A DNA stretch of 64,000 nt from Diprion similis. Its lineage: Eukaryota > Arthropoda > Insecta > Hymenoptera > Diprionidae. The notes beneath the pieces are model-generated. The model was not told where the DNA came from. It ran no database searches and was given only the letters and a program-made list of their open reading frames with translations. Of the stretch, positions 2,805 to 27,818 are shown in pieces. Numbering within the stretch: the stretch's first letter is position 1; every line of letters starts with the position of its first letter. A program made the translations under genes and the position numbers. Location: positions 17,548,584 to 17,612,583 of the forward strand of contig NC_060116.1 of NCBI RefSeq assembly GCF_021155765.1, read 5' to 3'.

Positions 2805-4156
2805 GTAAAATCAGCCAATCGCTTGCACGGTTCAAGAGAAATGTTCTAGATTCGTTTCCATGATTAGTAAGTCGCTTTTATGGTTCGCAGCAAATCAATG
2901 AGTTGTAAATATCGCTTACATGAACTTGGCTTGTACCATGTTTTTACCGACGGACTCAGGGACAGAGCGTAACGTGAGTTTATTGGAGGGAGGGGGGTAT
3001 AAATTTTTTGGGGATGGATCTGTGAGTGTAAGGTTTTTTCAGATTTTAAAGGAAATTTTTATCTTGTTCCGCCGATCCGGTAGTCAAGCTTGTGGCCTCT
3101 ATTCATCCACACAAACGCAAATAATTCAGTGGGTCGATTTCATAATACGTCGGTCATTATTTACCGAATATCCTATTACAGTTTTGAATAATCATAATCA
3201 GCAGTCTGGTACTCGATTAATTTGCGTTTGAATCGAGGATTTTTAAAACTCTCAGTCACAGTCACACAAATCTGGCACAGATTATCGTACTTATAGGCAC
3301 TTGTCTGAGCATAAGAATATAGCCTAACGGAAAAAGAACAAGAAGCTGATTATCATACCATTAATCCTGAGGATGAAAGGGAAACTCTTTAGCGGGCAGA
3401 TTAATACATGGAGATGTCGTCCTGGATGATTCGGATTTAGAACCAATATCCGTTAATCTTTCCACTGAAATTATGTTGGGGAAAAAAAGCGTCATTATCC
3501 AACGAATATGAATCTCCAATGATAATACCTGTTTTGACTTTGGCTCGTATTGATGGTCCTTGGTAGGCTTGATAATACCTAGTACATATACTTAGTGCTC
3601 CATTATTCAAAATTGACTGGGTATTGTTCAGCATTGTAAAGTTAGAATGGAAATACGTTTTGAACAGCTGATAATGAAATATAATATAGTATTTAAAAAT
3701 AATTGGTATTTACATGTCATCCTTATGCCGACATTGTAAGAAGTGTAGTTTGCATGAAACAATTGTTATCTGGTTATCGGTACTGTTGCACGTTGCAGCC
3801 AAGACAGGGCTTGCTGGTTTGCTTCTCCTTGCAATAGAGGGCCCACTTTTTTCAGACACTTAGCGTGATAACAATTTAAATAGGCAATCTATAAGAATAA
3901 TAATTGCAGAAGTAATTTCTGGCCCCCCCTGTCCCTCCCCTTCTTTAAAGGGCAGCGGAGGTTTGTGAACATTAAAAAAACCAATAAGAACACTGGAAGA
4001 TAATGACACTGAAGCTAGGTGACGATACATATTTGCATCACAAAACTACTTAAATCAGTAGACAAATGTCAGAATTGTTAAACGTGGTTCAAGAACCTTT
4101 TGTGATGATCAGCGACTAACTTCAGTATCATTGGAAAATATGGGCTAAATACATAC
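2805..4156. other. Non-coding stretch downstream of known ApepP exons
   Basis: Probably the last intron and/or 3' flank of the minus-strand aminopeptidase gene. The open frames at 2920-3231 (plus) and 3437-3634 (minus) have no recognisable domain and no convincing splice context. I see nothing else. Confidence 0.5.
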
Positions 4157-6551
4157 CTCTTGATCAGTGAGAAGAGATTTATCTAGTAAATTGCTCTGTA
4201 TAGGGACCATGGTGACACACTCAAAGGTGAGAAAGCCCCGAGATTTAAAATTGTGTGGGGTAGCTGTTTCCACAATGACCTCTACATCCTCCAGGCGAAT
4301 GCCAAACTTTTCATCCTCATAGTATCCTGGTTCTAAATGATGTAAGTGGCTTACATTACTTGAATTTCTTGATAAATTGATTCTAAATTTCTTACCGTTG
4401 GAGAGAAACATGCCGATCTGTAAACCAGGGTCATCGGGATGCAGACGCCATGAAATACCCATTGGTCCCTCGTGAACGTTCAAATATGCTCCAACTCCGT
4501 GTGCAGTACCATGCAAATAGTCTAGCCTGTTTTCATAACCATATATTAAATCTTGTCAATCTAATAGAATCAAAAATTCAATACGGATCATTTCTTTGCA
4601 ATTTTTTTAAATTTTTTGCTTAACTGGGAGGTAAGCTACCTTACCCAACTTCCCACAGAGATTTGCGTGCCAAAATATCCAGATAGTTGCCCTTGATCAT
4701 TGTAGGAAAAATAGCATTTGCCAGGGCACACTGTCCCTTGAAAACGCGTGTAAAACATTCTCGCTCAAAAGCAGTAGGTGATCCAAAATGCACAGTTCGT
4801 GTAATATCGGTAGTCCCATCAAGGTATTGGCCACCGGAATCACAGAGATAAAACTCTCGGTCATTGATAGGAGTGTCTGTTTCAGGACTAGGTGCGTAAT
4901 GGATAATAGCACCGTGTGCTCCAACCGCCGAAATTGTGCAAAAGCTTGGTCCAATGAAATCTTCTTGTTCCCTATTTTGGTGAAATTTTTAGTGAATACA
5001 ATTAGTATGGTTTAAAATATGTGGACAATAATAGTTTATCGTGTGACAAAAACAGAAAATAGGCAATATCCAAACTAGCATAGCTCGCAGCATGAGCCAA
5101 AGGCAAGTGTTTTAATCACACAAGGCAGATAATCGCAATCCGCACGTGTGACAATACGATATTTTCTGCAATATTTGCACGGAAAATTTTATTGAAAATG
5201 CACCGAGGGGTGCACAGCGTGTAAAATTGAGTTATTTGAAAGTGCGCATGTATCAATATTGTTTTCCGGTACTTTACATACTATCTACAGGCTTCAAAAA
5301 TCAAACTTTCCAAGCACGTGTTGCATAATATATGTTGTAATTTTGGCAATGGCAACAATCCGGATATGAATGATACTTCACAAGATCATGCAGCAATAAA
5401 TTTTATTAAGGGTGTACCAATACTTACGCTCTGAATTTTTCTAGTTGAGCAGCACCAGAAAGTTCAGTAACCAGTGATTCCTCGCTCTTTGACTTGACCT
5501 TTTCTTCCAGCCAGGCCAAGTATTTTACAACAGCAACACCGTCTTTCAGATGAGCTTTCTTCATTCCTTTAATTTCTACAGTGTTCTTAATGGCTTTCAT
5601 TACACAAATAGGCGTGATATTGGTATGCAGTTTATTATTAATCTCTCCTGAACCACAACTAACGTGCAGCGCATAGCTGGAGCTGTTACTGATCCAAGTC
5701 TTTCCGTCACTAGCAGTACTCCTTTCTTTCAAATACATGCCAATAGTGTCATATGGATGATATTGTGGGTCCACACCCTCATCTTTAAGCTGTTGCTTTG
5801 CTTCCTGTGTAACCTTCGATTGATCAATGAAAATATGGACTTTGTCCAGCGTAATAACTACATAAGCAAAAAATACAGGATTGTAGTGAATGTCGCTTCC
5901 CCTCCAATTAAGAAGATAAGCGACTTCATCAAGAGCCGTTACAACCAGTGTAGTAACACTTTCGTCTCTCATAGCTTGGCGGCATAGCTCTACTTTTTCA
6001 CCTGCTGTTTTTCCCGTATATTTCAAGGGCTGACCCACTACTTTGTTGGCTGGCATGCCTGGTTTGTCTGATCCCCAAACCAAATCTACAAAATTCTTTT
6101 CCAGTGGTAGGAAACTATGTCCAGCTGCAACGAGGCTGGCATTTATGGCTGACCACGCCATATTGCTTATCAAATTGGGATCAACAGCGACATTGGATTG
6201 TGAGGATAAATTTGAAGCAAGCCAAGAGGCCTGTGTAGGAGTGCCAACGACTCCCTCCTTCATCAGCGTCCATGCTTCAGGTGGATCCAGTTCTTTTGTA
6301 GCCTGTGCAAAATATCGCCCATCTGTCCACAGCAGAGCTTGATCTTGAGTTATAATTGCCGTTCCAGCTGAACCACTGAAACCAGAGATGAATGATCTGC
6401 GCTGATCTTTTGGTGCCAGGTACTCGGACTGATGAGAATCTTCCGATCCAACTATATAGGCGTCAATCCCTTTCTTGTTCGTACCTACAGTTGCTGTCCT
6501 CAGCAAGTCTCTCAACTTGGCCAGCTTGATTGCTCCTTTTCCGGCTACCAT
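4157..6551 (-). CDS. ApepP: Xaa-Pro aminopeptidase 1 (cytosolic aminopeptidase P), 3' exon missing
   Basis: Metallopeptidase of clan MG, family M24B, which removes an N-terminal residue preceding proline. Exons on the minus strand: 6551-5428, 4971-4645, 4526-4396 and 4332-4157; all junctions are GT-AG and phase-consistent, giving 586 residues. Two creatinase-like N domains come first (DGRYFAQA, DEVAYLLNWRG), then the catalytic pita-bread domain. Metal ligands are visible: Asp419 and Asp430 in CDSGGQYLDGTTDITRT, His in HGTAHGVG, Glu in EPGYYED and Glu in FECVTMVPI. I chose the ATG at 6551 because a good acceptor (TTTACAG) lies just upstream at 6562-6563 and the longer open frame reads into intron-like sequence. 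The family runs about 610-620 residues, so the sequence after SLLTDQE (donor GTATGT at 4156) needs one more short exon that I did not find. The third intron is only 63 bp and stop-free. Confidence 0.93.
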
Positions 6552-8500: not shown

Positions 8501-8700
8501 ACGCCGAAAAGAGTTCCTATGCCTCAAAGACGTCACAAAAATGTGTCGTATTTTTGGGGAATCATAAAACCGGACATTTTTCTCGTTTTTGCTGTATGGA
8601 TAGTCTAAGCCAACCGCAGCGCAGTGTTAACTATCGCGTAATATCTAAAATATTAGAATCGTTGATATGTGCCTGGCATTATTAATGGAAATCCAATTGA

Positions 8701-11700
8701 CTAGATATAACATGTTTCGTCGGAAACCTGTAGGGTTTCCTTAAGCTTATCGCGGTACGTTAGAACAACGTGAAATGTATCTGGCGGTAGAGCGACGCAA
8801 CCTGGTGTAAGATGAGCTTTTAAATTTTCGGGAGTGATCCCGTCTGCGGCTGCGACGTTGTACTTCGAAAAAATTGCAGCTACAGTGGCGAACGTAAACG
8901 CCTGAACAAGCCGCTGCCCGATGCAAGTCCTCTGGCCGGTAGAAAATGGGAGAAAGTGAGCGGGTTTGATTAACCTCCGTGAACCTCCCCCCGGATCCTT
9001 CGACTGGGCCAAGAAACGTTCAGGACAAAAATTTTCCGCCCCGAAGCCCCAGTATCCCTCTCCGAAGTTGAGCTCGTAATTGTTGACGAAAACAACGGTG
9101 TCCTTGTTTATTGCATACCCGTCGACCTCCGTATCTTGCGTAGCGACGTGAGGAACTATCGGGGAACTCGAGACCCTCAGAGTCTCGCATATAACGGCTT
9201 CCGTGTAGGGCATTTCGGGCCTGTCGCCGAGATCCGCAAGCCGGTGATTACGGCGTTGTCGAGCGGCGTCGCATTCCGCTTGAATCCTCCCCTGGACCTC
9301 AGGATGTCCGACGGCGTGAGCGAGAACCAGCATGACCAGATTGCCTATGGCCGAATGCCCGCCCAAGAAGTCCTCTAGCTCGTAGATTACGTGCTCCCAG
9401 GAGAGGCTCGTGTCCGGAGACTCGAGGTGGAGGAGTAGCGCGTCGGTGAAATCCCGGGGGACCTCGTTCTCCGGATCCAGACTCGACCGACGCACGTTTA
9501 CAATCCTTTCGAGGATGAAAGAGCGGATATCCGTGCCCCAAGTCCTCAGTCGCTTCATGTGACTTTTGTAAAAAGGGCTCAACCACGGGAGAAAGTCGAT
9601 CGCGTAACCCTGGTTGATTTCCCAGAATATTTTATCGAATATTCGTACCGTTCTCCGGAACTCCGGATCCGCGTAGCTGAACCAGGAGGAGCACATGTAC
9701 CTCGTAAACATGTTGGCGACGGCGGCCAACAGCAACGGCTTTACAGGCTTCTCGCCCCGTCGCACCGGTAGCGCCTCGTCGGCACCGAGGACGTCGATCA
9801 AACGATTCGTCTCTATCGATGCTACTCGGTCTATATCACCCTGTTGCACACTTCCGCTACGAGGTGAACAGTAGCTGCGGGCCAATGCGCGACGGGTTTT
9901 TTGCAACTCCGACCAGTCGCACAATGCAAGCGCTGAAATGCAAAGAAGTCATCACGGTTATGTGTGATATTGGAGACAAAGAGATGTGGGGAAGTGTGGA
10001 GCAAGAAATCAAAAAGAGAAAGAAAATGTCAACAACAAAAACCTGTAGAGTGAGGTGAAACCGGCCGCTCCCAAAAAAAATTATAAGTAGATACAAATTC
10101 GTAATAGGCTGAAGAAAGTATTGAAAAATTTTAACACACTTGATGTTTTTTAAACGAAGCGGATATTAGAATATTTAAAATAAACGGAAAAATTATATGG
10201 ACTGTATAAAAAAACTGCCTTCCGAGAATTCTCCGGCTTCAAAGCTAGTGGTACCACAAATCAATCCCGATATTTCTGACTCAGTTGACCGACAAATGAG
10301 TGTACTTGGGGATTAATTTTGATTTTAATCCTTAATTTATTTCTCAAGCCGGCGAATCTGTTGGTTTAATTTTTGTTTTCAAGTGAGACCTCGTGCATAA
10401 GTGAATACGAATTGCGATAAATATATCTCGATAGAAGTTTAAGGTATGGAAATTTATGTGCATAACTTGTCATAGATATTAATAATCGCTTCAGTTTTTT
10501 TCGATGAATTGCATTTGCTTGTATCAATGCTTAGTCGAAAGAAATTTTACAAGTTGCTTGATGTTCTATAAAAGGCTATATACCGTATAACTTTTCACAT
10601 TTCAAATTTCCCACCATCCAAGCATTCTGATTGGTTGACTAAACTTTGCAAACCAGTCAGAATGCTTTGATGGTGGGAAACGTGAAAATGTGAAACATGA
10701 AAAGTTACATGATAGATAGCCTGTAAAAACATTCACAAATACATGTCTACGTCAATCACGTGCACTGGATAACATTGCTAACGATTTGAAATATGCAGTC
10801 ATGGCTATGCCGAGTCAGTGACTAACGAACGACGGCATGTCGTTTAATTGCAACTCAAGCATTTTCTATTTTACTCTAGAAGCTCAGAAGCATATTCGTT
10901 ATTTGGAAAAGGGAGAAGAACTTCGACTTGCGTACGTAAAACGCTGAAATATTTTATAGCGGGTTCAACTTGGAGTGTAAATACAGATAGCAAAATTTTA
11001 GCATTAGCGACCGGATCGCTGTTAATGAAGTTGTAAAAATCAATTCTATTTTTTAGTCAGCGAAATTATTAACGAATAGTACGAGAAAATAAGTAGCAGA
11101 AAAATATAATACCCACGAAAATTCGCAATGCACGAGTGCAAAAGTTATAATGAGACGTGCTTGCGAGAGCTTCTTGTTTTGTTTTATTATATATCTTTTC
11201 GACTTTCTTTTCTCTTTTAGGTTGAGACTAGTATAATCAAGTTGTGCCGAGTATCCTGTATCTTTCTTTTTGTTTACTTGCAATCACATTTTGTAAATCC
11301 ATATGGATTCACGATTACGCATGGGTCCAAAATTGTCATGGATACAAATAAAATTTACCCGAGAATTTAATACAAATAAAAACATGTGATAGATGCTACG
11401 ACGGACGTAACGTCTAGATCGTGAAAGGAAATTCTTCATTTAGATTGTGTTCTGACGTAGTAATTACATCTACATCTCCGCTTACGGAGTCGCTCGAGAA
11501 ATTCGCGGAACTCTTTACGTGCAATGTCTGCCAAACTCTCCCACGTCATGTGAAATGTAAAAGCATAAGGTCAGTACATCGACAGACTAGTTGAGCATTT
11601 CTTTGAAATCAAGCCAGTATACATATATTATAATTGTTATAAGCATTTATATACGTTTGATAATCAATATTTCTCAAGCCAATGAAATTAGATGGAAGTA

Positions 11701-13247
11701 CCAAAAATTAAGTGATTGACATTTATGGAGTTGATGTGTAATTCCCCGCCAAACTCGCCGCACACTCTCGTTACGCTCCGATTTTCAAATTCCACAAAAA
11801 TTCGTGGATATGTTGCTTTTGTAGAAATACAATTTTAACGATTTTCTCAGAAACTTGGTAACGATATACTTGAACTTATGTGGAGCAGAAGAATTTGAAA
11901 GAAACCACAAACCCTTGGAGCACCTTGATCTTCAAACGATTATATGGTCGGACGTATTCACCATACAGGGTCCTGAGAGGGATCATTTCAAAGCTATATA
12001 GTGAAATTCTAAATAAACTTGGTTTTATTGTTTCGTCGAATTCTCTAATTCTCTGTACTTCCGAAAATATTGACACTAAAATTCTAAAAAGAAGGAAAAT
12101 TTTATTTCGACATAAACACATTCAAGAAGTTTTCGTGACATTTGAAAATGTCGATACAAATTTTGGCCTCAAAGTGTGCGGCTTGGCATAAAACTTATAC
12201 TCATTGTCAGATATGGAGTAGCTCGTGGACAGAAATCACAATTTTTAACGTGTGCGTGGGAATTTAGAGACGGCGGAATTGAATTCATGTGACAATTGCG
12301 TTTAACATGTGCTCCTATATCTCAAAGCCTAGCGTTAAAAGTGTAAACAATCTCTTTGAAAGTAAAATTTGAAAAGCCCTCCTCGTGCCCATAAGCTGCA
12401 TAAGAGCGTGCGTCCCGAGATGCTAATTTATAAAACGGTATGTATAATAATTCAGAGGTCAGGTCGTATTTGAGTTCAAATTTCGCGTATCGATGAAGAG
12501 ATCGGTTTTCTAACACAAAGGTGGAAAAAATAAACTGAACCGTCTTTCTTCTTCGCTATTTCTACATTACTCCTGTGTATAGGAATTCGGTTTACTACAG
12601 CATCGATTAACTGCGATATAAAAAGTGTTACATGTAGATTAAAGCTCACAGTTATTGCGGTCACCGCCAAATAACTCGTGGAAGCGAAGAAAGTCAGGTC
12701 GACCACCGAAATCTTTGCCCCTGGTGACCAAGACTTCCTTGATGAGGCGATAGCTGCTGACGACGACGCACCTGGAGGATCCCAGCTTGAGGGCGTAAAT
12801 TTCGCCGTACTTCCGGCTCATCACAGCGAAAGCTTGAAAAGGTCCACCTGGTCCTCCCAGCAAGTGTAGACAACCCAGAAATGGCAGACCTGAAGGGCCG
12901 TTAAGTGTTTTTTGCTTTCGTAAGCCCATCTTCGCCCTGCTGGTTTTGAGTTTCCCAATTACCGATTCATGTGCAGTATCGACTATATTTTGAACTTTAC
13001 GGGCATACTTTGACGCGGGATTTTCACCGTGACTAAAACCACTGCCCCTACTGTTGTTCCCCATGCACCTATTGAGGCAAAATTTATGATCGGCAACGAT
13101 CGATTTCGAGGCCCGACGACCAGTCAGTTGTTCCGGATTTGAATAACACCCAATTCTAATTAGAATCCTCGCAATTGCCGTTCGAATCAATGTAGAAATA
13201 AAGGATAATAAGTGCCACGTCCACCTGCACAAGATTTCCCGGGCCAT
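8701..13247 (-). CDS. Cytochrome P450 family CYP307 (spook/spookiest), ecdysteroid synthesis
   Basis: Halloween-family P450 acting in the 'black box' stage that turns 7-dehydrocholesterol toward ketodiol in the steroidogenic gland; CYP307 enzymes are known as ER proteins. Two exons, 13247-12650 and 9932-8701, give 609 residues. The split codon rebuilds the CYP307 signature around GGDRNN-SLALCDWSELQKTRR. Other motifs: proline hinge GPSGLPFLG (117-125); the atypical CYP307 I-helix GGHSAIGN (390-397), which lacks the usual acid-Thr pair; ExxR as ETLR (449-452); PERF (503-506); haem loop FSTGQRTCIG with Cys536. The ATG at 13247 has a G at +4. About 116 residues precede the proline hinge, far more than usual, so the true start could be internal or the N terminus is truly extended. 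I cannot say whether it is CYP307A or CYP307B. The gene points away from neverland. Confidence 0.93.
9933..12649 (-). other. CYP307 intron (2.7 kb) with a foldback repeat
   Basis: Donor GTGAGC sits at 12649 and acceptor TTTCAG just before 9932. The intron holds a palindromic element (10573-10722, listed separately). No other coding segment is convincing. Confidence 0.85.
10573..10722. repeat. Foldback (palindromic) element inside the CYP307 intron
   Basis: Two imperfect inverted arms of about 60 bases lie around a short loop. The left arm contains TTTCCCACCATCCAAGCATT and the right arm its near-complement AATGCTTTGATGGTGGGAAA. The outer ends GGCTAT and ATAGCC also match inverted. The A-rich flanks are similar (TATAAAA/TGTAAAA). 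It has no coding capacity and is consistent with a small non-autonomous DNA transposon. Confidence 0.8.
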
Positions 13248-16200
13248 AGTTTAGGGTTTTGCCCTCTGTCTGACAATTAATCGGAGAATCAGTGATCGTT
13301 TGGAGTCACCTGTAGTAATTACTATATGTATATATGATAATCTACGTAGCTATCGAAAACTATGAAAGCCGCGCAACACGTTCCGAACCATCGACGCTTG
13401 CAATTTCACTGCTCCGATTATAAAAACACCGACGTCAGCCGAAGAGGTGCCGTTTACAAGCGTGTAGTGACGAATCAGCATGTACGCGGAACTCGGATCC
13501 CAATGGGGAGGCTATTCGAGGCGTGAATGCCGACGACTTCTTGTAAATCACTCTCCCGCCACCAGGGAAGAAAAGATTCTCCTTGATTTTGCTCGACTGG
13601 GAAGTAGTATCACGGTTTTTACAACTTCTTGTCTTGCTAATATTCAGACATTCGAAAAATATTTTTGACGACCAACACCTCGGCACTCCATCATACCGCT
13701 CCAAACACTCGAGTGACACTACGTTACAAACTCAGTATGCAGCATTCGTGGTGTGGAACAGAGTTGGGATTCACGGTGTTCATTGCACCAATTTTGGCCT
13801 TCCCCTCCTTCACCGTGAGATGATTATAGATACGGTTACACCGCGTGAGAAGATAAACAAACAATCTCAGTCCGTTATACCTATTGTTAGAGCAGTTTAG
13901 CACTGTCCAAGAAGACGTATGAAGCAATCTTTGTCTGGCATTACTCACAGTATTATTGCCAATGTCGACGTTTCCGTACACAGATCTAACAGGACGAAAA
14001 CGATACGGTTGTATTGGAAGTACAATCCACAAATGTCAGCTGGCTACTATACCTATACATGTAGGTATGAAAACTCTGAACTTGGGACGGTGGTTTTACG
14101 TTTTCCGTGCCTGGAAGTATCCCAAACTGAATAGTAATATTATGATTTTATTTTGCATGCTTTTTTTCGGAATAGAAGACAACTACCTAAACCAATAACA
14201 CGCGTGTACACTAGGGCTGTTCGGTATGGAAGATTTGATATCGATTTTTTTCAAGACTTTTTTGACCGGTGCATTCGGTATACCGAAATATCGTTTTTTC
14301 AGTAGAAAACCATAATTTTAACAATAACCAGAAATCTCCGCAAACATTTAAATTCTGATACCTAATGAACATCGATATATTAATACACGTGTCTAAACTA
14401 CTAATCTTATGTCTTGACATATAGGTATTGTATATCTCACGAAGCAAAGCCACGTAAACAAAGCTCCGTTAAATTTAATGATCAGGAATTTTTGGTATGA
14501 TGCAAATGCTCGTAGGGTACGGCCCATTACAAAAGCCCGCTTGAAAATAATGTCTGGGCTTTCAAGCAGACTTCTGCTGAAGAGAAATGCTCTGAAAATG
14601 TCCCTGGTAATATTCGACATTAAAAATGCGTTACAGAATCAAGAGAAATAGTGTGAAATAGTGTGAAATTCTGGTAAACTGAAGTTTCTCTCTGCAATCC
14701 GTTGCGCTCCCCCGTTCTCGCGGCACATGCACATGGCACAGACACACAGTAGCAGGGATGCGGCACGCATGGAAGAACGTCGTCGTCCTTCTCATCCCTT
14801 TCACCCCACCCTTCGATCAATCGGCCAGACCCGTGACGGATCTTAAATCGGGCAGACCTTTACAGTCTCCGGTCTTCGAGCGAGCGTAGATGTGCAACGG
14901 GGCTACCTGACACGCGGACAACACCTTGCTTATTGTTAGTAGATACGGAATGGTGTATCACCTTGCGCCGCGTTGTACACCACGACTAGCGATACATACT
15001 CGATGCATAAGTACAGGTATGATACGTTTTTATATGCATGCAAACTATACCTACCCATCTGCCCACGTCTGTTTATCATGCGTTCACTTATACCTATGCT
15101 CCGCGTCAACTTAACACTTCGCGGAATATTTATGTCAGCAAAAGATCATAGACTCGGCTCAACTACCCACCCCGCGCGCCTTTTTTGCGTCATTATCTTC
15201 CGAACTCCACCTCTGCTTGCCAATGGTAAGTAATAATTGCCTCCTACAATTATATAACCACTGATTGAAATTCTGTTAAATCTTTGCCTTGTAACGTTAT
15301 TCTGGGTCTTTTTCTCCCTTATACTTCGTACATCACCGCATACGGTGACGCTTCATGCCATACGGAGAGTAAATCGTTAAAATATTTTTTCGGCTCCGCA
15401 ACCCTATTTACAATGATTATCGGTATACCTACTACTTGTTCCAATTCTTTCGAAATTACTTTTGAATTTGCATTCAAATGCAATTGCAATAAAGCTCACG
15501 ACTGGGAGTTCAGAGCTTGTGCACTGTATATAATTACTTATAATATGAAGAGGCTGCAAAATAACGACGATAATTGTGTGCTTGCTTTGCAAATTAGGGA
15601 AAAATGTTCTGAGGAAATCGTGATATCCGTGTTGTCGGGATTTCATCGTTAAAGCGAATGTGTGGAGCGTAACGTAGATCTCTATCATAGTACGTATTTG
15701 TGGACGCAGAAATCGTAGAAAATGGGATACGAATGATCAATATGGGTTGATAATCATTTAATGAAGCTAAAATCCAGGGGTTCGTTTACGGAATGAACCA
15801 AACCTGCTGGACGAAGGTTTTTTACACCTTTCTATATAGAGGAAATGCATACTATGCACAGTCGTATTGTACTACTCATCACTCGTTGGCGGCATTAACT
15901 TGTGTCATATTATATCATATAATGTGTGTATATAAATAAGTGCACGCCTTTACAAAAATTACTTACCCATGAAGATAGATTATATGTATAAGCGTACGAC
16001 TCAAGCAATGCGTAATACCTTACCTACGCATAACGAACAATTTCGAAATTAATAAGTCTGTTTCCACGATTGCCGAACAATACTTAATTATAATAATTTT
16101 AATTTTGTTTTTATCGTCAGTTTCATAACAAAACTTCCAATAGATTTTCCAATCTACAGGTAATTACCGGATGCGTTATAGGCCAAATGGTTTTCGGTCA

Positions 16201-16990
16201 AAACATGCATTTGTTTTCAATCTTTTGGATGTTGATATTGTTGTCTAGAGCGATGAGCTGGATGAGCAAGAATTTCTATAAAAGATCACACTGCAGCAGC
16301 GTCAAATTTCACTACGATGTAGAGAATTTTTACCCAAAATTTCATGATCCTGATGTAATTAATTATGTTCAGTGCGTGTAATTTTCATGACAAGTTATAC
16401 CATTTATATTCAATAACTAATAGTATGAACAAAGATTTTCATGAAGATTATAGTAGTATCCCATTCCAAGGGCACGTGTGTTGAAAAGGTACTATCACTG
16501 TACTCCAAGTCGTGGGAAGTCAGTATAGAAATATTTTTAGCTGAACCGTGTCTTTACTAAACTTACAGATAACTTGAACATTACACGAATGAGGTATTTT
16601 CCAAGTTTTGACAGGAAAAATATGATTCTACGTTTAAATATATGTCAAAGAGGTAAAGAATGTTATCCTTGAACTCGTTTCGTCGATGAACGTCTCTTGA
16701 TACAAAACGGTTGAAGAAGCGTCGGGAATTGTGGCAACCGGTACGCCATTTGCGGGTTGGTAGGTAGAGGCATACGCCTATTAAAGGCAGAATCAGGCAA
16801 GTTCAGGGACTTCCAGTTTCTTACTCGGTCCTTCGCATTTCTCCCCACTTCCTCCGGCCCTTCTTTGTAAGCCCGTCTCTCCGTCTGCCCCCGACTCTCC
16901 ACCCGCTGCCAAAAGGCGCCTGGTAATTGACTTGACGTTGATCAGCTGACATTTACCTCGCGAAACATATACTTATTCAACTAACTCATG
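13248..16990. other. Intergenic region upstream of CYP307
   Basis: Contains the CYP307 promoter, whose start site I cannot fix; minus-strand TATA-like stretches occur near 13330 and 13420. A 64-codon plus-strand frame at 16187-16381 is listed separately. Other open frames look random. Confidence 0.5.
16187..16381 (+). CDS. Small ORF with a signal-like hydrophobic N terminus (doubtful)
   Basis: A 64-codon frame. Its first 25 residues include the hydrophobic core LFSIFWMLILLSRA, resembling a signal peptide; the rest is basic and aromatic with two cysteines (SHCSSVKFHYDV; QCV at the end). An acceptor-like TCTACAG lies 26 bases before the ATG. I recognise no family. It could be one exon of a secreted protein or chance. 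It sits between CYP307 and the retroelement remnant. Confidence 0.15.
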   Translation: MVFGQNMHLFSIFWMLILLSRAMSWMSKNFYKRSHCSSVKFHYDVENFYPKFHDPDVINYVQCV

Positions 16991-17345
16991 GGAGGGTGTA
17001 CGTTATCGAGCAAAACAGATAAAGGAGAAAACAAATCAACAGAACTTTTAGCAGAAACTGTTTATCACGATATTATAATATACACCATCGCGACGTATAA
17101 CAGTTTGAGGTGGGCGATTTAGTGTTAAAGAGGAATCGCGTCCTGTCAAAAGGGTCGAAGGATTCGCATCAAAGTTAGCCCATAAGTTTGCGAGTCATTT
17201 TGAAGACACGCGTGTGATCTACCCGATCGTATATGAGCTAAAATATAGCGAAGGAAAGAATGTAGGGAGACACCGTATCAAGTTTCTCAAGGCATATGCT
17301 AAAAGTAAAAGCGCCCGAGGAATCCTTGGACTTGAGCAAGAGTAG
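16990..17345 (+). pseudogene. Decayed LTR-retrotransposon integrase C-terminal region (Ty3/gypsy-like)
   Basis: The plus strand carries recognisable pieces of the integrase C-terminal module of LTR retrotransposons: a YYN..HHRDV-like segment, then VGDLVLKRNRVLS, and in a different frame KLAHKFA and later YELKYSEGKNVGRHRIK. At least one stop interrupts the first part and a frameshift lies near 17160, so no intact protein can be made. The frame after the shift ends at a stop near 17345. No reverse transcriptase or protease domain was found nearby, so only the 3' part of pol survives. Confidence 0.75.
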
Positions 17346-20300
17346 TAAAGCGTTGTGGGGTTGGTGTTTTTTGTTCATTTCAGGTACAGTCGGCGAAAAG
17401 CAAGCAGTGGAAAAGAATTTCGGTTCTGACGAACATCGTCAACGACAGTAGCGAACAGCACCCGTCAAATTCGTGACAGACGCTAACGGGTGCAGTTCAA
17501 AAGATTTTCGTTTATTTTTTCATTTTCTGTTACTCTTGATTAGTTGGGGCAGAAGGTAGCGGGTGCCATATTTATTTTTGTTTTAGTTTGTTTTGATTAA
17601 GGATTTTAGCGCAATTACGCTATGAGTACCCTAAGCTAATGGTCACCGCTCACAAAGAGATCGGTCCGCAGGAGGTGATAAAATAAACGAGTTTACCATA
17701 ACATTATAGCCTACTCTTTTTGTTATTTTTATTTTGTGAGGAACGGTTCATGTGGAGAAAGACGAAACGGACAGGACTAACGAATACCGACGGTAGTAGC
17801 GACGGATCACGAGGGATGATGGCAAGGGAGCGTCGAGGTTGCGGGGAGGGAACAAATCACCTCGTCAAGGAAAACCAAGCGCAGCAACTGATCGCGAAAT
17901 TCGGGTAACGACGGACCAGCGACGAGGACGGACCAACAAACCCTTCTACAACGGACCTCCTAGAAGTTGCACAAACGACGATATTACGACCTAGTCGATG
18001 AACATCATCTAGAATCGATTGTCGCGAAATTTTGCAAGTAGGTACGTGATGTCACGGAAACAGGTGGCGCAAAGGGTCCGCGTTGAGGTAGTCCGTAGAA
18101 AGATTTGACATTCTTCCTTATTATATCCGTTATTGATAGTAGACAGGTCGTTAGGAAAGAGAAATTTTGCATTGTTCTCATTTTGATAGTGAGTTTGCGA
18201 GGTAGAGTACGTCACACGAGTAAATTGCGAAGAATTTGGCATAGTGTAAACGATTCCGTTGTTTTGGCTAAGAGGCGGAAAGTCAGATCGATACTTCTCG
18301 TGATGCAATTTTGCACCTATTTAATAAATCAGTTTGCGGTACCTTGAATATTCGCGCCAAACGTGGCACTACGTTACGCATACTATCAAGGCAAGTGTAT
18401 AATGTAGAAAGGCGGTGCTCGTACCTAGGACAGAGGACCCAACTATTGGCACATACTCTTAGGGGGCATAGTCAAAAGAGGAGGAAGAAGAAGAGGACCC
18501 CATCCAAAAGCAGATAGAGTTGAGCGTGCTAGCGTAATACAGCATCCAAGGAACCTCTGTAGTTCAAAGTAAGTTAACACCCGTACGTTTATTATTACGA
18601 ATAAAATATGTACCAGTGTTTAATTAATATACTGTGCATCAAGTTAATAATTTCCTATCTCGCCGTATAATACACGAATGACTCATAAAAATGTCAATAG
18701 AAAAACTACGGTAATATTCAGCAAGTTTTGACCGGTGGTTTTGCACCGTTATATTAAGTTTGTTTGGAGCTCCAGAATTTTGATATCGTTCTCCGACGTA
18801 CGTATAGCCGTAGCCGGATTTTTATTCATGAGTTTAAATTCCGAGGATTATCATTAGTCTTTTTTTTTGTTATTATCAAGACTTAATTGTGTCTCGTATA
18901 GTTTAGGTAACCGCGCAAGCTGTGTCGTTGCGGAATTTTAAATGATATTTTTAATTTCGTTTGATTTATCTTTTGTTAGTTAACAAGTGAAATGGTGGAA
19001 GTGAGTTTACGCGATTATCAACTTGCATTACGCCTTGAGTTAGATTTTGCAAGACATCAGTTGCGCCCATTCTCTAAGTTAGCTTATTTCTCTTTTGATT
19101 TCAGTTGCTTTTCCATTACGGTAGATTTCAAGTTCTTCTGTGGTTAGTTCGACGAGTCAGTTGGTTGTGCTCGTGCTTGCGGTCAGAATACCGTAGTTTT
19201 CGTTATTTATTTTGTGAATTTTGATTGTAAATTGTTGAATTTGGAAATTTCAATTATAGCGCAAGTACGTTAAATTTATTTCCCCATTTTTTTTTTCTCA
19301 ATCTCTGTTTCCCTCAACTCTTACGATTAGCCGGGGTTGTCGCGAAAGGGCAGATTAACCGGTTGCTTATTAAAAAATCATTCGCAATCAAACATTTAAT
19401 CCGGGGTCATCCCGTGTGCCCAATTATAGTACGCCATAGCTAACAGCCGTCCTAGAACATTGACCCGAGATGAAATGTTGCACCCGACCAATGCTCAAGA
19501 GAGAATTAATAGTGCTTGACAACTAATTAGCATTCAGATATTCTATTAGAGCGATAAACTTACAGTCAGTGACACAGCATCATCATCTTTCTTTGCATAA
19601 TTGATTGCTTTCTTGGTGAAAATATTTCTCTGAGAAACTCCGCCCGTGTCCCATGAGTATGAAAATTGCGGAGAAATATCGCAGACTTTTTCAGAGAAAT
19701 ACTTTCGGCAGGGTTGCAAAAGCTCATGAAACATATTCTGCGGTTAAGATACTGCAGTTACGTATAGAAACGGAAATCCTGCAACAGGACTTTACATCTA
19801 CGGTGGAGCCAAACTTGCATAACTGTGTACGCAAAGTCTGGAGTTCCCTCGATTACCTAATGGTATGGCTCGCTTCGGAAGATCTTTTAATTAGTGCTAT
19901 GCGTCCTTGGTACGTTATGCATTGTAAATACAAAGATATGTATAAATTGTGAGTTGTTATCCAGTGCGCGGGAAATTTTAGTCAGCGAAGGTGGGGCATG
20001 ACATGACTACTCTTTAGTCGACGAATACGTGCCACGAGAGTGGGGTCCGCCGGGACGACTGGGGGTGGGGGTTCGGGACGTAGGACAGACGAGATCAAGT
20101 CTCCAGAAGTGGCCGAAGAAACGAATAAATTAGGGCTTGAGGCAGAAGATCGCAACAAAAACGAAACAGCGACATGGCAGCAACCCTACCAAAAACCAGC
20201 AGCGCGCAACATGTTGCGCGTGATATTTTTTTATTATTCATATTATATATTTCATTGTTCTCATCCGCTGTCGTACCGAAATGTCATTGCCATCGCCATT

Positions 20301-21301
20301 ACCATCGTCATATGTCAACAAACAACTCGCACGACATCATTTTATGCTTGCGAGCTGAATATAAATTACAGGCGAGACTAGGCGGTTCGCCAAACCCCAC
20401 CTGAAATTTCATTTCGACTTTAACAAGATCCCCATAGATTACCATTAACGAACTTGGGAATGGATTTTACACCAGATTCGTTACCATCCCTTATATTCCT
20501 ACCATGAAAAATGCATGTTCTCACATTCACAATGCGCCTCCAAAGTCGGTCGACCGATCAAAGGACTTGTCTCTTGTCTCCGCGAGGGGATACTCAGAGT
20601 TGAAAATAATACACAGGTATATATGTATAATATAACACGCAGCGGGTAGAAAATGGTAAACTGCTACTGACGGGCAATGGATGAATCTCATTCAGTTGAC
20701 GAAAGATCGATCGAGATGATAAAGAATGCCTCATGAGCTGAAGATATTCGGTTTAGGATTTTAGATCACGGATCTTGGATCTTGAATCTTGGATCTTGAA
20801 TAATGGGTTCCGGATACCCGAGGACATCAGCGGTCAACAGAAGACTATGCATAGTTAATAGTGAATAGTAATGGAATAACGGTGGAACAAACAGTTGCCG
20901 GAAAGAAACACTGCACGCGGGTCCGATCGATCGTATATGTATCGATTCGTATGGTAAAAATATGCATGATCGTGGATTGTGGGGAATTACAAATGTCGTT
21001 TCAGTGAATAAAATACATTCCAATATTAGCTTGGCGTGAGAACACCCCACCATTCTGCAATCCCCACCACTTTCTCACATCCCTTTGCGGATAGGTCGAG
21101 GATAGGCCGATGGGTCTCTTAACATGCGAACAAATTTATTTTATTACCCCAAGCGCTATGCACCCTCGTATCAAATGCGGCGATCCTATTATATGCGTAA
21201 GAACTACAGGCGGGGATTATCACATTACATACAAAAAATCTGTACATAAGGTTTCGTACACTAACTCTTATACTATACTCGACATACTCTTAAAGACGCT
21301 C
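17346..21301. other. Intergenic DNA, probably including retroelement 3' remnants
   Basis: Directly downstream of the integrase remnant. Purine-rich and GC-richer patches (17750-18000, 18400-18540, 20030-20210) stand out from AT-rich DNA and may be 3' UTR or LTR remnants of the same or related elements, but I could not pair two LTRs. A 14-bp unit (ATCTTGGATCTTGA) is repeated twice in tandem at 20772-20799. No gene is supported. Confidence 0.45.
20174..20404 (+). CDS. Small ORF, signal-like segment plus His/Cys cluster (doubtful)
   Basis: A 76-codon frame with a hydrophobic segment (IFLLFILYISLFSSAVV) followed by PKCHCHRHYHRHM. No family recognised. It lies in DNA that may be a retroelement remnant. 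Reported for completeness, since a chance ORF is the most likely explanation. Confidence 0.12.
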   Translation: MAATLPKTSSAQHVARDIFLLFILYISLFSSAVVPKCHCHRHYHRHMSTNNSHDIILCLRAEYKLQARLGGSPNPT

Positions 21302-21340
21302 TATATAAAGGATGTAGCAGTGACTTAGTTTTCCAGTTAT
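21302..21340 (+). promoter_or_regulatory. Candidate core promoter of neverland
   Basis: TATATAAAG at 21302-21310 is followed by an initiator-like TTCCAGTT with its A at 21335, 33 bases from the first T of the box. This is the usual spacing for arthropod TATA promoters. It would give a 5' UTR of about 230 bases before the ATG at 21565. A second TATAAAG (21338-21344) is too close to the putative start to be the main box. Confidence 0.55.
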
Positions 21341-21564
21341 AAAGAACTGAGCACACGCCTCGGGACTGATTTCGAAGCTCCGTAAACTCCACCATTCCTA
21401 AGTTCCGTGTCACTGATTCCTCTTTTTTGTGATTTTCGCGGATCGATCGATTGATTTTACTTCCGCAGTGAACGAAATTTATATACTCTTCACTAGGCCG
21501 ATGTGCGTTTGTGTTCGATTTTACTCGAGTAGCTATAATAATTGATGCTCTTTGTTGTAGAATA

Positions 21565-23673
21565 ATGAGTGATACTACCGTCAAAGGTAATATGGCAGTC
21601 GTCTGGTGGATAGTGAGTGCCGTAACATCCGTGCTCATTCTAATTTATCTGGCGTTCTTCTGGAAGATCAATTGGATCAAGGTAAGAACTATAGAAACGA
21701 CGAGTTGCTCCAAGTGCTTTGGAAAATGTTTGATCTATTATATTCGAAACAAAGTGAAGATAATTTGTTTGCGCACACGAGAGATTAACGCAAATATCTT
21801 TATTCACGACACTTCAATAAGGATTTGAGGGAAAATGACGCGAAGAGATCTTGGCTCAACAGGCGATCAGGTGACGGTAAGAGTGGAGGTGGCTCGCGGA
21901 ACAAGAACAGAAAAGTAGGTCACCTACCCCCGGTGTATCCAAACGGATGGTTCGCGCTGTTGGAAAGCTCGCATTTGAAACGTGGCCAAGTCAAGCACAT
22001 CGCAGCTCTTGGACAGAACTTTGCAGTTTTTAGGTAAGGAAACATTCATCCTTCATTTTGATGAAAGACCAATATGTAAGGAAATACGAGGGAAACGAAC
22101 GTTACACGGGTTATCAATTAAAATATTTAATCAATCCTAGAACGCAAAAGGGAACTGTTAGTGTACTGGATGCTTATTGCCCACACCTAGGCGCCAACAT
22201 GGGAGAGGGTGGCAGAGTTCGAGGAGAGTGTCTCGAATGTCCCTTTCACGGCTGGCTTTTCAGAGGAGCCGATGGTCGATGCCAGGATATACCGTACTCG
22301 GACAAAGGTATTAAATTCGCTTGCATAAACACAGCAATTGATTTTTGTAAGTCGGAGAAAAAATATAAGATCAAAAAATCATAATACCAATAGGCACTAC
22401 TGCAGTAATCCCATCTCAATTTTGATGCATGTTTTGCTTCCTCACGATCTTAAAATCGATGAAAATCGTGGGTTCTTTGAAATCTCCACCCCATGACGTG
22501 TTCTTGTCAATTTTTTATAGTGCCCGAATTCGCGAAAACCAAGGCGTGGGATTGCTGCGAAGTCAACCAATTGATCTTCGTTTGGCATCACGCAGAGAAC
22601 GCAAAGCCAAGCTGGCGGCTGCAACCTCTCGGAAAAATATCTGATGGGAGCTGGCGTTACCACGGAAGAAACGAGTTTATTGTCAACAGTCACATACAGG
22701 TGCGTCGCAAATTGCTCATTGAATATTACATTACAGTGACACAAACAATGCTAACTTATTGTTCTTCACGTTCATGTAACATACACTACGAAACAAAGTA
22801 AACTTCATTGCGAAATGATTTGAGCTAGGACTTGCCTTGATTTCTTGTTACCTCTGTTATCAGGCATCGAGTATTTTACATGTAACCCATAAGAATAGCA
22901 ATTAATTTCCGTATTTCAACGATTGCCAGGAAATACCAGAAAACGGAGCGGACTGGGCTCACCTCAGCGCAGTTCACGGTCCTTCGATTCTACTAAGCGA
23001 ACGTGTACCGTGGCTTGCACGTCACAGTTGGACGGCGGCGGAATGGACGTCGTATGTACCGCCGTCGCAGGAGCAAACGATACCAAAAGCCGAAGAAGCA
23101 GGGACGACCGAGGTTGAAAAGGAATGCGGGGCTGGTATCGATAATGTACCGGAACGCGAGCCCAGAATATCGGAAGAAAATGTAGCAGGAACGGGGGAGT
23201 TCGAAAACGGTGGTGGCAAGATTAGCAAAGATAAAACGCCGATGAGCAACAAGTCGCACAAGGCGATAATGCGGTTACGTCACAGCTTGATCCTCCTCGA
23301 ACGCATCGCAATCCTGCAGCTCGACGTTCGAGCCGAGCAGATAGGACCCGGTTACGTGGAACTGCTCGTGCAAAGCAGCATGGGGCCGATGTGTATTCTG
23401 CAAACGGTCACGCCACTCGAGCCCCTGCTGCAACGCGTCATACATTTAATGTTCGCACCCCCCCTGCTTGCGCCGCTCGCTACTCTGGTACTATTTGGTG
23501 AAAGCGTCATGTTTGAGCGGGATGTTGCCGTCTGGAATCACAAGCGTTTCGAGCAGAGGCCCCTTTTGGTTCGTGAGGATCGATCGATCCTTGCCTACCG
23601 CCGGTGGTACGCGCAGTTCTATTCACCCCACAGTCCTACCTATCAGTCCACGACGCGGTCGCTGCAATGGTAA
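21565..23673 (+). CDS. nvd: Neverland, Rieske-type cholesterol 7,8-dehydrogenase
   Basis: Converts cholesterol to 7-dehydrocholesterol, the first step of ecdysteroid synthesis. Exons: 21565-21681, 21822-22033, 22141-22307, 22521-22699 and 22930-23673; all GT-AG and phase-consistent, 472 residues (family about 430-460). An N-terminal membrane segment (about 10-32, [23 protein letters not shown]) is followed by a basic linker and the conserved [15 protein letters not shown]. The Rieske [2Fe-2S] ligands are Cys123-Pro-His125 and Cys143-Pro-Phe-His146. The mononuclear iron motif [16 protein letters not shown] supplies Asp233, His236 and His241. The C-terminal part has [28 protein letters not shown] and [13 protein letters not shown], all neverland-like. 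Odd: an acidic, glycine-rich insert of about 60 residues (roughly 270-333) falls where known members have a short linker. The gene diverges from CYP307. Confidence 0.97.
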
Positions 23674-25384
23674 GACGTCGATAGTGATTTTTCATTTTTC
23701 GAATCACACACATATTACACACGTTGTCGACAATCATTTTTTGTCTATCAACATTCAGTCGGTTTCTCTGGACTGATATCATTGCAGCGGAGCTGATATA
23801 ATTAGCCGAAGAGCCCGTAATTTTGTCCGAGTAGTAAATTCGTTGTTTTTACGAATAATGCCACAGGATACTTGTAAATGAAAACGTCTACTGTATTTGT
23901 GAATTTATGCTCTTATAAGACCAAGCTAATTCATTTGATTAACTCTGCTTGGAAATTGTCAAAGGAATCAGTGTCTTGCTTTCCATAAATATAATATTGG
24001 TTCAGCAAAATTGTCATTAATGACACTGTACATAAATAATGGTAATTCTATCGCCAAAAACTATATAAAACAGTAGAAATTCTTTAAAATAATAAATAAT
24101 AATGCAGATTATTACAAAGAAATTGTGCTACATAGATTTATTTGCTGCTAACAAATATTCAACTTCCCTTTCACCGTGTGTATTATTAGTTATCACAGAA
24201 CTCTTATCTTATTATTAATTCTACTGCTTAAGCCTGTTAGGGTTATTTGAAAACAGTTGTTTGCCTTTAATTACTATATTCCATCCTTCAAATCTGTTGG
24301 TTCTAGTTTATTCTTAAATGCTTTGAAGTCTGGGTACTAGAAAAATATCTAAAATAAAACGGTTCGACATACGCATGGCCGGCATGGCAGTGAGTTCTAC
24401 AACTAGTAGAAAACACTGTAGAGATTATTTCCAATCACGTATGGGTGTACCAGACTAAAGAAGAACCTATTGCAACGGAGCCTGCTCAGCATAAAATGAA
24501 AGTATGATCAAGATACAATCGAAATGTTCCGAATGCGATATCGAATACAAGATGATACAAGATAATTCAATCCAAAATGGATTTGAATCTTCACTCATCC
24601 CCACAGATCTCGCTAAGGGAATTTACGACGATTTTTGTATCTCATATATCATCTTCAAATAAATGAAATGAACTGAAATTATTGAATCGAATTGTTGCCG
24701 TTGATTCAAATTAAGAATTCGCTCACTTGAATTAACTTGGAGTCAAAAGGAATGGGTAAAGGAAAGAAATGGCAAAGAATGATAAATTAATTCATAGAGC
24801 TGATCAAAATGCTTGTTTGGCAGCAGGCTTTAGGCATTAACTCTGAATGAAGAAAAAGCGTGAACCAAAATAAATCTTAAGCGATAATGTTTTGTTATCC
24901 AAGGACAGAGTAAACTACTATTGTGTGGAATTATGGCCGATGGGAGAGAGCCCTCTTTTCTGGAATAGTTCCATTCTGACATTAAACACCAAATGGACAC
25001 TGAGAGGACTGAAGATTGAGTAAACTCACGCAATAAAAGAAAGCGTAGATTCCGTTCTGCTTACACAGATTTAATACTATAAATTGTCCTATTTGGTTGC
25101 CGAATATTCAGGAATGCATTTCGAGCATGTGCATTCATATAAAAATAAATATCAATTTGACATCAGTTTGATATCTGAGATTCACTAGCAATCGAACGTG
25201 ATTAACGATAGCTATTGCGTTTTAGTTTGACATCGACATTAGGCATATTTACATATATTAAGGACGTAGCTGAAGTCAAATTCGCTTGTGCTGTTTACCC
25301 AAAAACAGTTACATGAATATCAGCTTGAAGGAATGTTTTCGTGTTATATTGACTTCACTACAGCCTTATAATCAATCCATTTTG
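23674..25384. other. Tail-to-tail intergenic region of nvd and the PH/PDZ gene
   Basis: AT-rich. A plus-strand AATAAA at 24091-24096, 418 bases past the nvd stop, is the best poly(A) candidate for nvd. I see no coding segment or repeat of note. Confidence 0.5.
24091..24096 (+). terminator. Candidate poly(A) signal for neverland
   Basis: AATAAA inside an AT-rich run on the nvd strand, 418 bases after the stop codon. Plausible but not unique in this AT-rich DNA. Confidence 0.35.
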
Positions 25385-27554
25385 TTAGTTTAGTACATAA
25401 TTCTTATATCCACGATGACTACGCAAGCATTTTTTCAAGGAAGATACCAGATCAGTTGGTTGCATAACAATGGAAACGTCAAGCCCGACACCTCCAAGAC
25501 GTTCTCGAGCGTCTTCTCCTTGGCCTAGTATGTTTAATGGCCGACCATTTACTTCCGTCAATGTCCAATTGACGAAAGTTCCCGCTGGCATGGTTGGATC
25601 AGCCGCAAGAGCTGCAGGTGGTAATCCAGAAGTCAATGCCATACCTCCAACCCCTATCACTTCGTTGCCCTGTAGCTCGAGCCCAAATCCTTGACTGTCA
25701 GTTTCGCGATCGCTTCCCCTAATCAAAGTCATTGTTCGACCCTGTGGGAGCCTCCTGACGATCATCTCTACCTATAAGATGGATTACATGTCAATCGAAG
25801 TGTTTGACGCAAAAATTTACAGATCAAGTTGATCGTAGTATAAAAACAAGGCTGAAGCTAGTAACGATAACGTAACAAAAGATGATGAAATAAATCGTTG
25901 TTCTAAAATATTTTAGAAGGACTTTCAAGGATTTGACTTTTCAAAATACCAACAAGTCTTTTTTGTTATATGATTCACTAGCTGAACTTCGGAGCGTCGT
26001 AAGGCTGTGAAGTAACGATTTTCCTAAACATGCATTGTTAAAGTAACCATTCTGACTTCAACCTCATGAATAAAAAAAGACAGTCAAGATTTCATTATTT
26101 ACAGTGGATATTAAAAAAGTTATCAGCTTACATATGGAGTTGTGCAATTCTTGAGAATATCACGTGCAGACGTCGCACTGTGCACAGGACTTCCAGCTAA
26201 ACTGAGCACCTGATCCCCAATATGTAGCACATTGTAAAGCATCGGCTGTTCACGTTGTTTCCATCCGGCGATCCTGCAAGTAAAACATATGAAACCGAAG
26301 AAACGAACATGGTAACATAAGCACATCCTTATATGTATTGCAGTCTTGAATCAAACCCGTTAACTTCTACTCTCGTATGAAAACTATATATGAGACTAAA
26401 TTCTTACCAGACAGTCCCAAATGTGTCAACAAAGGCAATGTTGTCCTTACAATCTCTTCTTCTCAACTGTAATCTGACTCCAGCATGGTGGCCCATTTCT
26501 CGTTTGAGTTGAAGTACCTGTTGCTCCCTCAATGTCAGCTGTCTACCATTCTCTTCTCTCATCACAGCCCTGTGAGTTCCACTTTGTTGCAGTCGGGGAG
26601 GAGGAGCGAGACTTCTATATTCTCTCAGAGCTGCATAATGTCTGCTCTCTGGCGATTCTGGACTGTTATTGCTTTCGATCAATCTACCAGGTGTGATCGG
26701 AGAATGAGAGGATGCCAAAAACAGACTCTCGTAACTGGAGTTATTATTTTCAATATTGGAGACATTCTCACTATGTCTATCTCGGTGTCCTCCAGGTATG
26801 AATCTAGGCTGAGTGAATGGCTCCCTACCATCATGCACTGGTATATTATCAAAGGTAAAGAAATTCGGCATACTTTCAGACATCGAACCTTGATTCATGA
26901 CAGCTGAGCTCTCCCCCTGATTCATCGGATTTGTCTGGTTTGCCGGCAAGCGAATAGAACCCACACGAGTGATTTCAGTCTGATTTTCTGTTACGGTTGA
27001 GACAGAATTTGTTAAAGGAACGTGAACCTGTACACCAAGTGACGGGGGTGGACGAGGTGGCAGGGGTAAGGGACTGGTCGGATCCCTAGTAGGGCGCCTC
27101 TCAGCTCCGGGTCCTTTGGAATAATAATTTTCCTTGGGACTTAGAATTTTCATCTCAGTTAATTTTCTACTAACAGTTTGTACCCAGTCGTACATATCCT
27201 GATAGGTTGGAGCTGCCAGCCGCAGGACCCTCTGGTCAGAAAAGTTGACGCAGAATTCAAAATCTTGCTGTTCGGTAGCACAAAGTGTGGGGGATAAATG
27301 TAGAATGTTTTGTAAGGATGAATTCCAAAGAAATGAATGATTGGCTGCCTGTTTTTGGTTGTTGTAACCTTCAAAATAAGGCTCAACATCGTCATGGATA
27401 CAAAAAACTACCCAAAATCTCGCGGCTTCTCTTTCCGCCGTATCCGTGCGTCGCAGCCACCCATTTTTGTGGATTTCTCTAAACACAATGCTTCCATTGG
27501 CATCTTCCATTTGCAGAGCATTAATAGTGCCAAATATGCTTGCCCATAAAAAAA
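25385..27554 (-). CDS. PH domain protein with tandem PDZ-like modules
   Basis: Exons 27554-26408, 26273-26132 and 25771-25385 join in phase. The first begins mid-codon after an acceptor (ATAG), so a start exon lies upstream; a fit is ATG-TCA-A at 27825-27819 with donor GTAATG, giving 560 residues. A PH domain (about 30-138) runs from NGWLRRTDTAEREAARFWVV to the closing Trp of MYDWVQTVSRKL. Then comes a proline-rich, Ser/Asn-rich linker (PLPLPPRPPPS). Two PDZ-like folds follow: one with LQLRRRDCKDNIAFVDTFGTVW and LHIGDQVLSLAGSPVHSATSARDIL, the other with GFGLEL, VNGRPLNILG and VSIVMQP. This suggests a membrane or phosphoinositide-linked scaffold. I do not recognise the gene name. It converges on neverland. 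Confidence 0.85.
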
Positions 27555-27818
27555 CTATTTACATTCAATTCTAATAAATAGAAACAAGTTACTTCATAAT
27601 GTACGAGTCTTATAAATATTGACTTTTTATACAATAATAACAATAGGTCTTTGCCATCCGTTTAATCATACGAGTCAGTTTTCAATTTTAAACGTTCTTA
27701 TGATAAAAGTCTCGAAATAAAATTCGAAAGTAAAATTAAAATGTGAAATGACTTAACTTCTTAAACCGAGTGTATGGTCTAAGATTAACTTGCTGCATTA
27801 CATACAACTTGACATTAC

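Follow-up and report, generated by a model that had tools for sequence, protein, structure and literature searches.

We analyzed a stretch of 64,000 nucleotides from the pine sawfly Diprion similis (contig NC_060116.1, positions 17,548,584 to 17,612,583; called the window below) that contains two genes for ecdysteroid synthesis, the spook-type cytochrome P450 gene CYP307A and neverland (nvd). In this pathway, Neverland produces 7-dehydrocholesterol from cholesterol, and CYP307A takes part in the 'black box' steps that follow. The original prediction, made by reading the window, held that the two genes lie head to head between 8701 and 23673, with about 8.3 kilobases (kb) between their starts. 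Exon models for the two genes (Table 1) bear this out, including the span, and both genes are intact. CYP307A and nvd are divergent, and their start codons are 8,318 base pairs (bp) apart (8,345 bp when measured from the second in-frame ATG of nvd). Our reading is that they are a functional-looking ecdysteroidogenic pair that keeps an ancient pancrustacean neighborhood, and we give this a probability of about 0.93.

The CYP307A gene has two exons separated by a single intron of 2.7 kb (GT..AG, phase 1) that splits the serine codon following GGDRNN behind its first base. The spliced product is a full open reading frame of 609 amino acids and is 100% identical, over all 609, to the deposited protein 'cytochrome P450 307a1-like [Diprion similis]' (P0001). 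Pfam p450 (PF00067) was found above its cut-off in both exons (171.6 and 47.4 bits), and the product has the P450 motifs ExxR (as ETLR) and FxxGxRxCxG (as FSTGQRTCIG). Wherever the best 120 of 520 protein matches name a subfamily, it is 307a1 or 307A; the Athalia protein stands at 64%. Ten CYP307A proteins, from sawflies to Daphnia, were aligned. The stretch GGDRNNSLALCDW is the same in eight of them, and the other two have one substitution each (N198D in Daphnia pulex and D205E in Drosophila mojavensis). The I-helix GGHSAxGN does not vary among the ten. Signatures of this kind, in CYP307 as in Nvd, are diagnostic of their families. The predicted spook-type identity thus agrees with the domain, the P450 motifs, the deposited Diprion protein and the names of its relatives. 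Two other features of the gene were seen. The N-terminus before the conserved GP (residue 117 in Diprion) is longer in Diprion, Neodiprion and Athalia than in the aligned beetle, cockroach and fly proteins, and the intron contains an inverted repeat (10600-10687) with 37-nucleotide arms that are 89% complementary around a 14-nucleotide spacer.

The second gene is nvd. Our model has five coding exons and encodes 472 amino acids; the acceptor of exon 2 was picked among five in-frame choices by the fit of the alignment to Neodiprion fabricii. The product is 91% identical to 'cholesterol 7-desaturase nvd' of that species (P0121), and the Neodiprion protein begins at the position equal to the second in-frame ATG. 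Both Pfam Rieske (PF00355, 54.7 bits) and KshA_C (PF19298, 70.8 bits) are above their cut-offs. The Rieske ligands (CPH and CPFH) and the iron site (NGADxAH....H) are unvaried in eight aligned Nvd proteins, those of Daphnia and Calliphora included, and solved structures matching the catalytic exon (three rows) are all of the KshA type. These residues and domains confirm the identification as neverland. A separate observation concerns residues ~266-334, in exon 5. In Diprion and Neodiprion this is a long, charged and weakly conserved stretch; in the alignment it is shorter in Cephus and almost missing in Daphnia and Calliphora.

The gap between the two start codons would be expected to contain both promoters. 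A six-frame Pfam scan of 13300-21560, with stops read as X, returned no family at E<=0.05. Therefore, the claim that no intact gene lies between CYP307A and nvd holds for known domains; a protein without a domain or a non-coding gene could remain. We also considered a transposon or a buried gene in the gap and rejected both, given the Pfam scan and the fact that nothing in the window matched Rfam at the gathering score. A search of 8600-23800 for repeats of at least 25 nucleotides found none with both copies inside the gap; three weak pairs (70-84%) place one copy there.

Table 1. Features of the CYP307A-nvd locus (positions are those of the window)
Feature	Position	Strand	Remarks
CYP307A exon 1	13247-12650	minus	start codon at 13247; ends at the junction of GGDRNN and S
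CYP307A exon 2	9932-8701	minus	I-helix GGHSAIGN, ETLR, haem loop FSTGQRTCIG
Gap between start codons	13248-21564		8,317 bp; 41.1% GC; no Pfam domain in six frames
nvd coding exon 1	21565-21681	plus	second in-frame ATG at 21592
nvd exon 2	21822-22033	plus	acceptor at 21822
nvd exon 3	22141-22307	plus	Rieske CPH...CPFH
nvd exon 4	22521-22699	plus	exon model and alignment
nvd exon 5	22930-23673	plus	catalytic domain with iron site, Pfam KshA_C
ApepP, Xaa-Pro aminopeptidase	4145-6551	minus	open stretches 5424-6551, 4641-4988 and 4145-4555 (open stretches, not splice models)

The next gene recognized on the CYP307 side is ApepP, 2.1 kb past the stop codon of CYP307A and on the same strand. It has the Pfam domains Creatinase_N, Creatinase_N_2, Peptidase_M24 and Peptidase_M24_C, and the 375 amino acids queried are 100% identical to 'xaa-Pro aminopeptidase ApepP [Diprion similis]'. 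The original prediction makes no mention of this gene. The deposited Diprion CYP307A and ApepP proteins are both on a contig of 17,816,656 bases.

Linkage of this kind has been described. Rewitz & Gilbert 2008 (PMC2276477) report that spo adjoins nvd in Daphnia and in Anopheles gambiae and that, in D. pseudoobscura, D. willistoni and D. mojavensis, no more than 60 kb separates nvd from spok; their legend to Figure 2 names ApepP. Among the literature examined, subscription papers on CYP307 duplications apart, that paper alone states the spo-nvd microsynteny; passages of papers on Varroa, panarthropods, bumblebee, honeybee, mud crab and bed bug make no mention of it. That is, the linkage has been known in kind since 2008, and what is new here is the sawfly instance and a wider count of linkage.

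For that count, we tabulated by hand the best 120 rows of 520 (CYP307A), 766 (nvd) and 3377 (ApepP) matches and used only rows with a species name and a contig size, which gave 84, 86 and 54 species, respectively. Contigs of equal length were taken as the same contig. Each row is a 90% cluster, and its name and its longest contig could stem from different members. Diprion is outside the comparison because none of the best 120 nvd rows is from Diprion. CYP307A and nvd were on equal-length contigs in 21 of the 22 species common to both lists. We take these 21 to be six Hymenoptera, three Diptera, two each of Hemiptera, Thysanoptera and Ephemeroptera, and one each of lice, Orthoptera, Phasmatodea, Blattodea, Odonata and Daphnia. 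Of the shared contigs, seven are smaller than 3.2 Mb, including those of Cephus cinctus (427 kb, the smallest), Chelonus (573 kb) and Phymastichus (986 kb). In three species the locus tags of the two genes are one or two apart (Eretmocerus QAD02_019595/019594, Menopon PYX00_007407/007405 and Diploptera L9F63_011518/011516).

ApepP, scored in the same way, behaved differently. It was on the CYP307A contig in only 6 of 14 species (Diprion, Neodiprion pinetum, Athalia, Cephus, Eretmocerus and Malaya) and on the nvd contig in only 5 of 22 (Athalia, Cephus, Eretmocerus, Orussus and Vespa velutina), so the method does not by itself produce the same-contig result seen for CYP307A and nvd. Among the species compared, ApepP was on a different contig in the remaining braconids and chalcids, several aculeates, the orthopterans, the stick insect, the cockroach and the beetle. 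Two rows that were left uncounted, a piece of CYP307A (P0007) and a piece of ApepP (P0244), both give a contig of 11,064 bases. Based on these counts, ApepP keeps with the pair in sawflies and mostly does not elsewhere.

Several observations weigh against an old neighborhood kept throughout. In Periplaneta, the one exception among the 22 species, CYP307A and nvd are on different contigs. Only one of the two CYP307A rows of Daphnia pulex shares the nvd contig. Fourteen of the 21 shared contigs are larger than 3.2 Mb, several of them chromosome-sized, and are weak evidence; genes on the same contig need not be adjacent. In Eretmocerus, ApepP shares the contig yet lies ~150 locus tags away (QAD02_019442). 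In addition, none of the 31 named aculeate species in the nvd list (rows with a contig size) has a congener named in the best 120 CYP307A matches, and the same is true of 11 of the 19 other named Hymenoptera, among them Orussus, Leptopilina, Trichomalopsis and several braconids. Of those 19, six are also in the CYP307A list, or eight counting congeners. The lowest named hymenopteran row in that list has 575 bits, compared to 472 at the end of the best 120. Such gaps can arise from the 90% clustering, from annotation that is missing or from rows without a name, so of these two patterns only the aculeate one is suggestive. It agrees with the statement in PMC4414376 that Apis and Bombus are without spo. 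The pattern suggests that CYP307A may have been lost in Aculeata, and perhaps elsewhere too. It seems that the pair can break by loss of one member and that nvd is able to persist without CYP307A beside it, with CYP307B presumably serving instead.

With these points considered, the best reading is still that of an inherited neighborhood. CYP307A and nvd would flank the 8.3-kb gap beside ApepP because the neighborhood predates the split of insects and branchiopods and has been passed down. The two genes most likely have separate promoters, and weak selection, rather than chance alone, probably keeps them together. It is also possible, although we think it somewhat improbable, that chance alone is sufficient and that the block is a relic of slow decay of gene order without selection. 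To our knowledge, ApepP has no role in ecdysteroid synthesis, and in sawflies it too has stayed next to or close to the pair (in the Diprion window, and on the same contig in Athalia and Cephus). Rewitz & Gilbert term such conserved neighborhoods remnants (PMC2276477). However, ApepP is apart from CYP307A in 8 of 14 species and from nvd in 17 of 22, whereas CYP307A and nvd are apart in 1 of 22, which exceeds the expectation from equal decay, with the reservation that the sets of species differ and that sharing a contig is not closeness.

The original prediction went further and proposed an old or selected block that is co-regulated. The age stands, given the published microsynteny in Daphnia, Anopheles and Drosophila and the linkage in 21 of 22 species. 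Co-regulation is not supported; nothing that we computed favors it. As a rival to the inherited neighborhood with separate promoters, a block held together by selection for co-regulation, in which a single enhancer or chromatin domain within the gap would drive both genes in the prothoracic gland and so keep them together and divergent, appears unlikely. The divergent layout in Diprion would fit it, as would linkage in insects and Daphnia, which split ~400 million years ago (PMC2276477), and in the species counted here. In Drosophila, both nvd and spok need Mld, so the predicted sharing of dedicated zinc-finger regulators is right for that factor; nvd is the target of Sean and spok that of Ouib, with no cross-reaction (PMC5788525, PMC4684333). 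The two fly promoters each have their own elements. Furthermore, Mld, Sean and Ouib, which are ZAD zinc-finger regulators, are reported from drosophilids only, so the fly mechanism is not transferable to a sawfly.

The promoter regions of the Diprion genes also argue against shared control. When the two 1.2-kb upstream regions were aligned locally, the best score was 24 in either orientation, and of 200 control pairs taken from this window, 176 scored at least 24 (control pairs avoid listed coding stretches and may include unlisted exons or parts of the gap). A common promoter sequence was rejected on this basis. Elements for Ouib and Sean, allowing up to three mismatches, had 3 and 2 matches in the window, compared to 4.39 and 2.39 expected, and none were in the gap. 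This negative was expected and says little about sawfly regulators, because the factors are known from drosophilids only. Judged from the distance of 8.3 kb between the start codons, a single bidirectional core promoter is unlikely. Neither the promoter alignment nor the Ouib and Sean scan found a cis-element shared near both promoters; a distal one could still exist. If a long-range element in the gap did serve both genes, then CYP307A and nvd would be among the very few pairs of pathway genes in animals selected to stay linked since before the insect-branchiopod split, and Mld, Sean and Ouib would be a late replacement, in drosophilids, of ancestral shared control. We regard this as speculative and improbable.

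The original prediction had also named, as an outcome that would count against it, a separate, functional CYP307 elsewhere that carries the expression. This holds in part within the family Diprionidae, where Neodiprion lecontei has both CYP307A2 and CYP307B1 (PMC10542623). Although the presence of both genes in that relative allows the thought that the first gene in our window is CYP307B (spookiest) or a pseudogene and not a working spook, this is very improbable given its full open reading frame, single consensus intron, complete P450 motifs, perfect match to a deposited protein, and relatives named 307a1 or 307A wherever the best 120 matches give a subfamily. The one intron would fit insect spo, which is described as having one intron, and not spot, with two (PMC2276477).

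Diprion thus offers a clean and compact sawfly example of the pair, with 8.3 kb between divergent genes and ApepP still adjoining. Our rough count suggests that CYP307A and nvd stay together in about ten insect orders and in Daphnia and that their neighbor ApepP mostly does not stay with them. Why these two steps are kept together can now be tested, and Hymenoptera are the foremost group for this: the pair persists in sawflies and some parasitoids, whereas in ants, bees and wasps nvd seems to be retained and CYP307A missing. The importance of the finding is modest unless selection or shared control is demonstrated.

Other open stretches in the window lie beyond nvd. Two are on the minus strand: one at 25385-25771 without a Pfam match and one at 26404-27558 that is PH-like (PF00169, 22.9 bits, under the cut-off of 25.1). 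On the plus strand, 48667-50805 is a long Q/N/T-rich open stretch that matches no Pfam family, and the open stretch at 55110-55958 has ankyrin repeats. These plus-strand stretches are possibly one ASPP-type gene.

The Diprion locus is similar to three known arrangements and differs from each. Like the block described by Rewitz & Gilbert (PMC2276477), it has CYP307A adjoining nvd, ApepP nearby (in the legend, in their case), and a CYP307A with a single intron. The passages of that paper mention no sawfly, and the Diprion genes are divergent with an 8.3-kb gap. The nvd and spok genes of D. melanogaster carry out the same two steps, and the original prediction correctly placed both in the pericentromeric heterochromatin of one chromosome, the third (PMC5788525). 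They differ in that the fly regulators are reported from drosophilids only, and Ouib and Sean elements are not enriched in the Diprion window. CYP306A1 (phm) and CYP18A1 are also an ancient two-gene neighborhood of ecdysteroid metabolism (PMC2276477), with linkage in Apis given in PMC1761136. Those two genes are paralogues and are described as lying tail to tail, whereas CYP307A and nvd belong to unrelated families and, in Diprion, are divergent.

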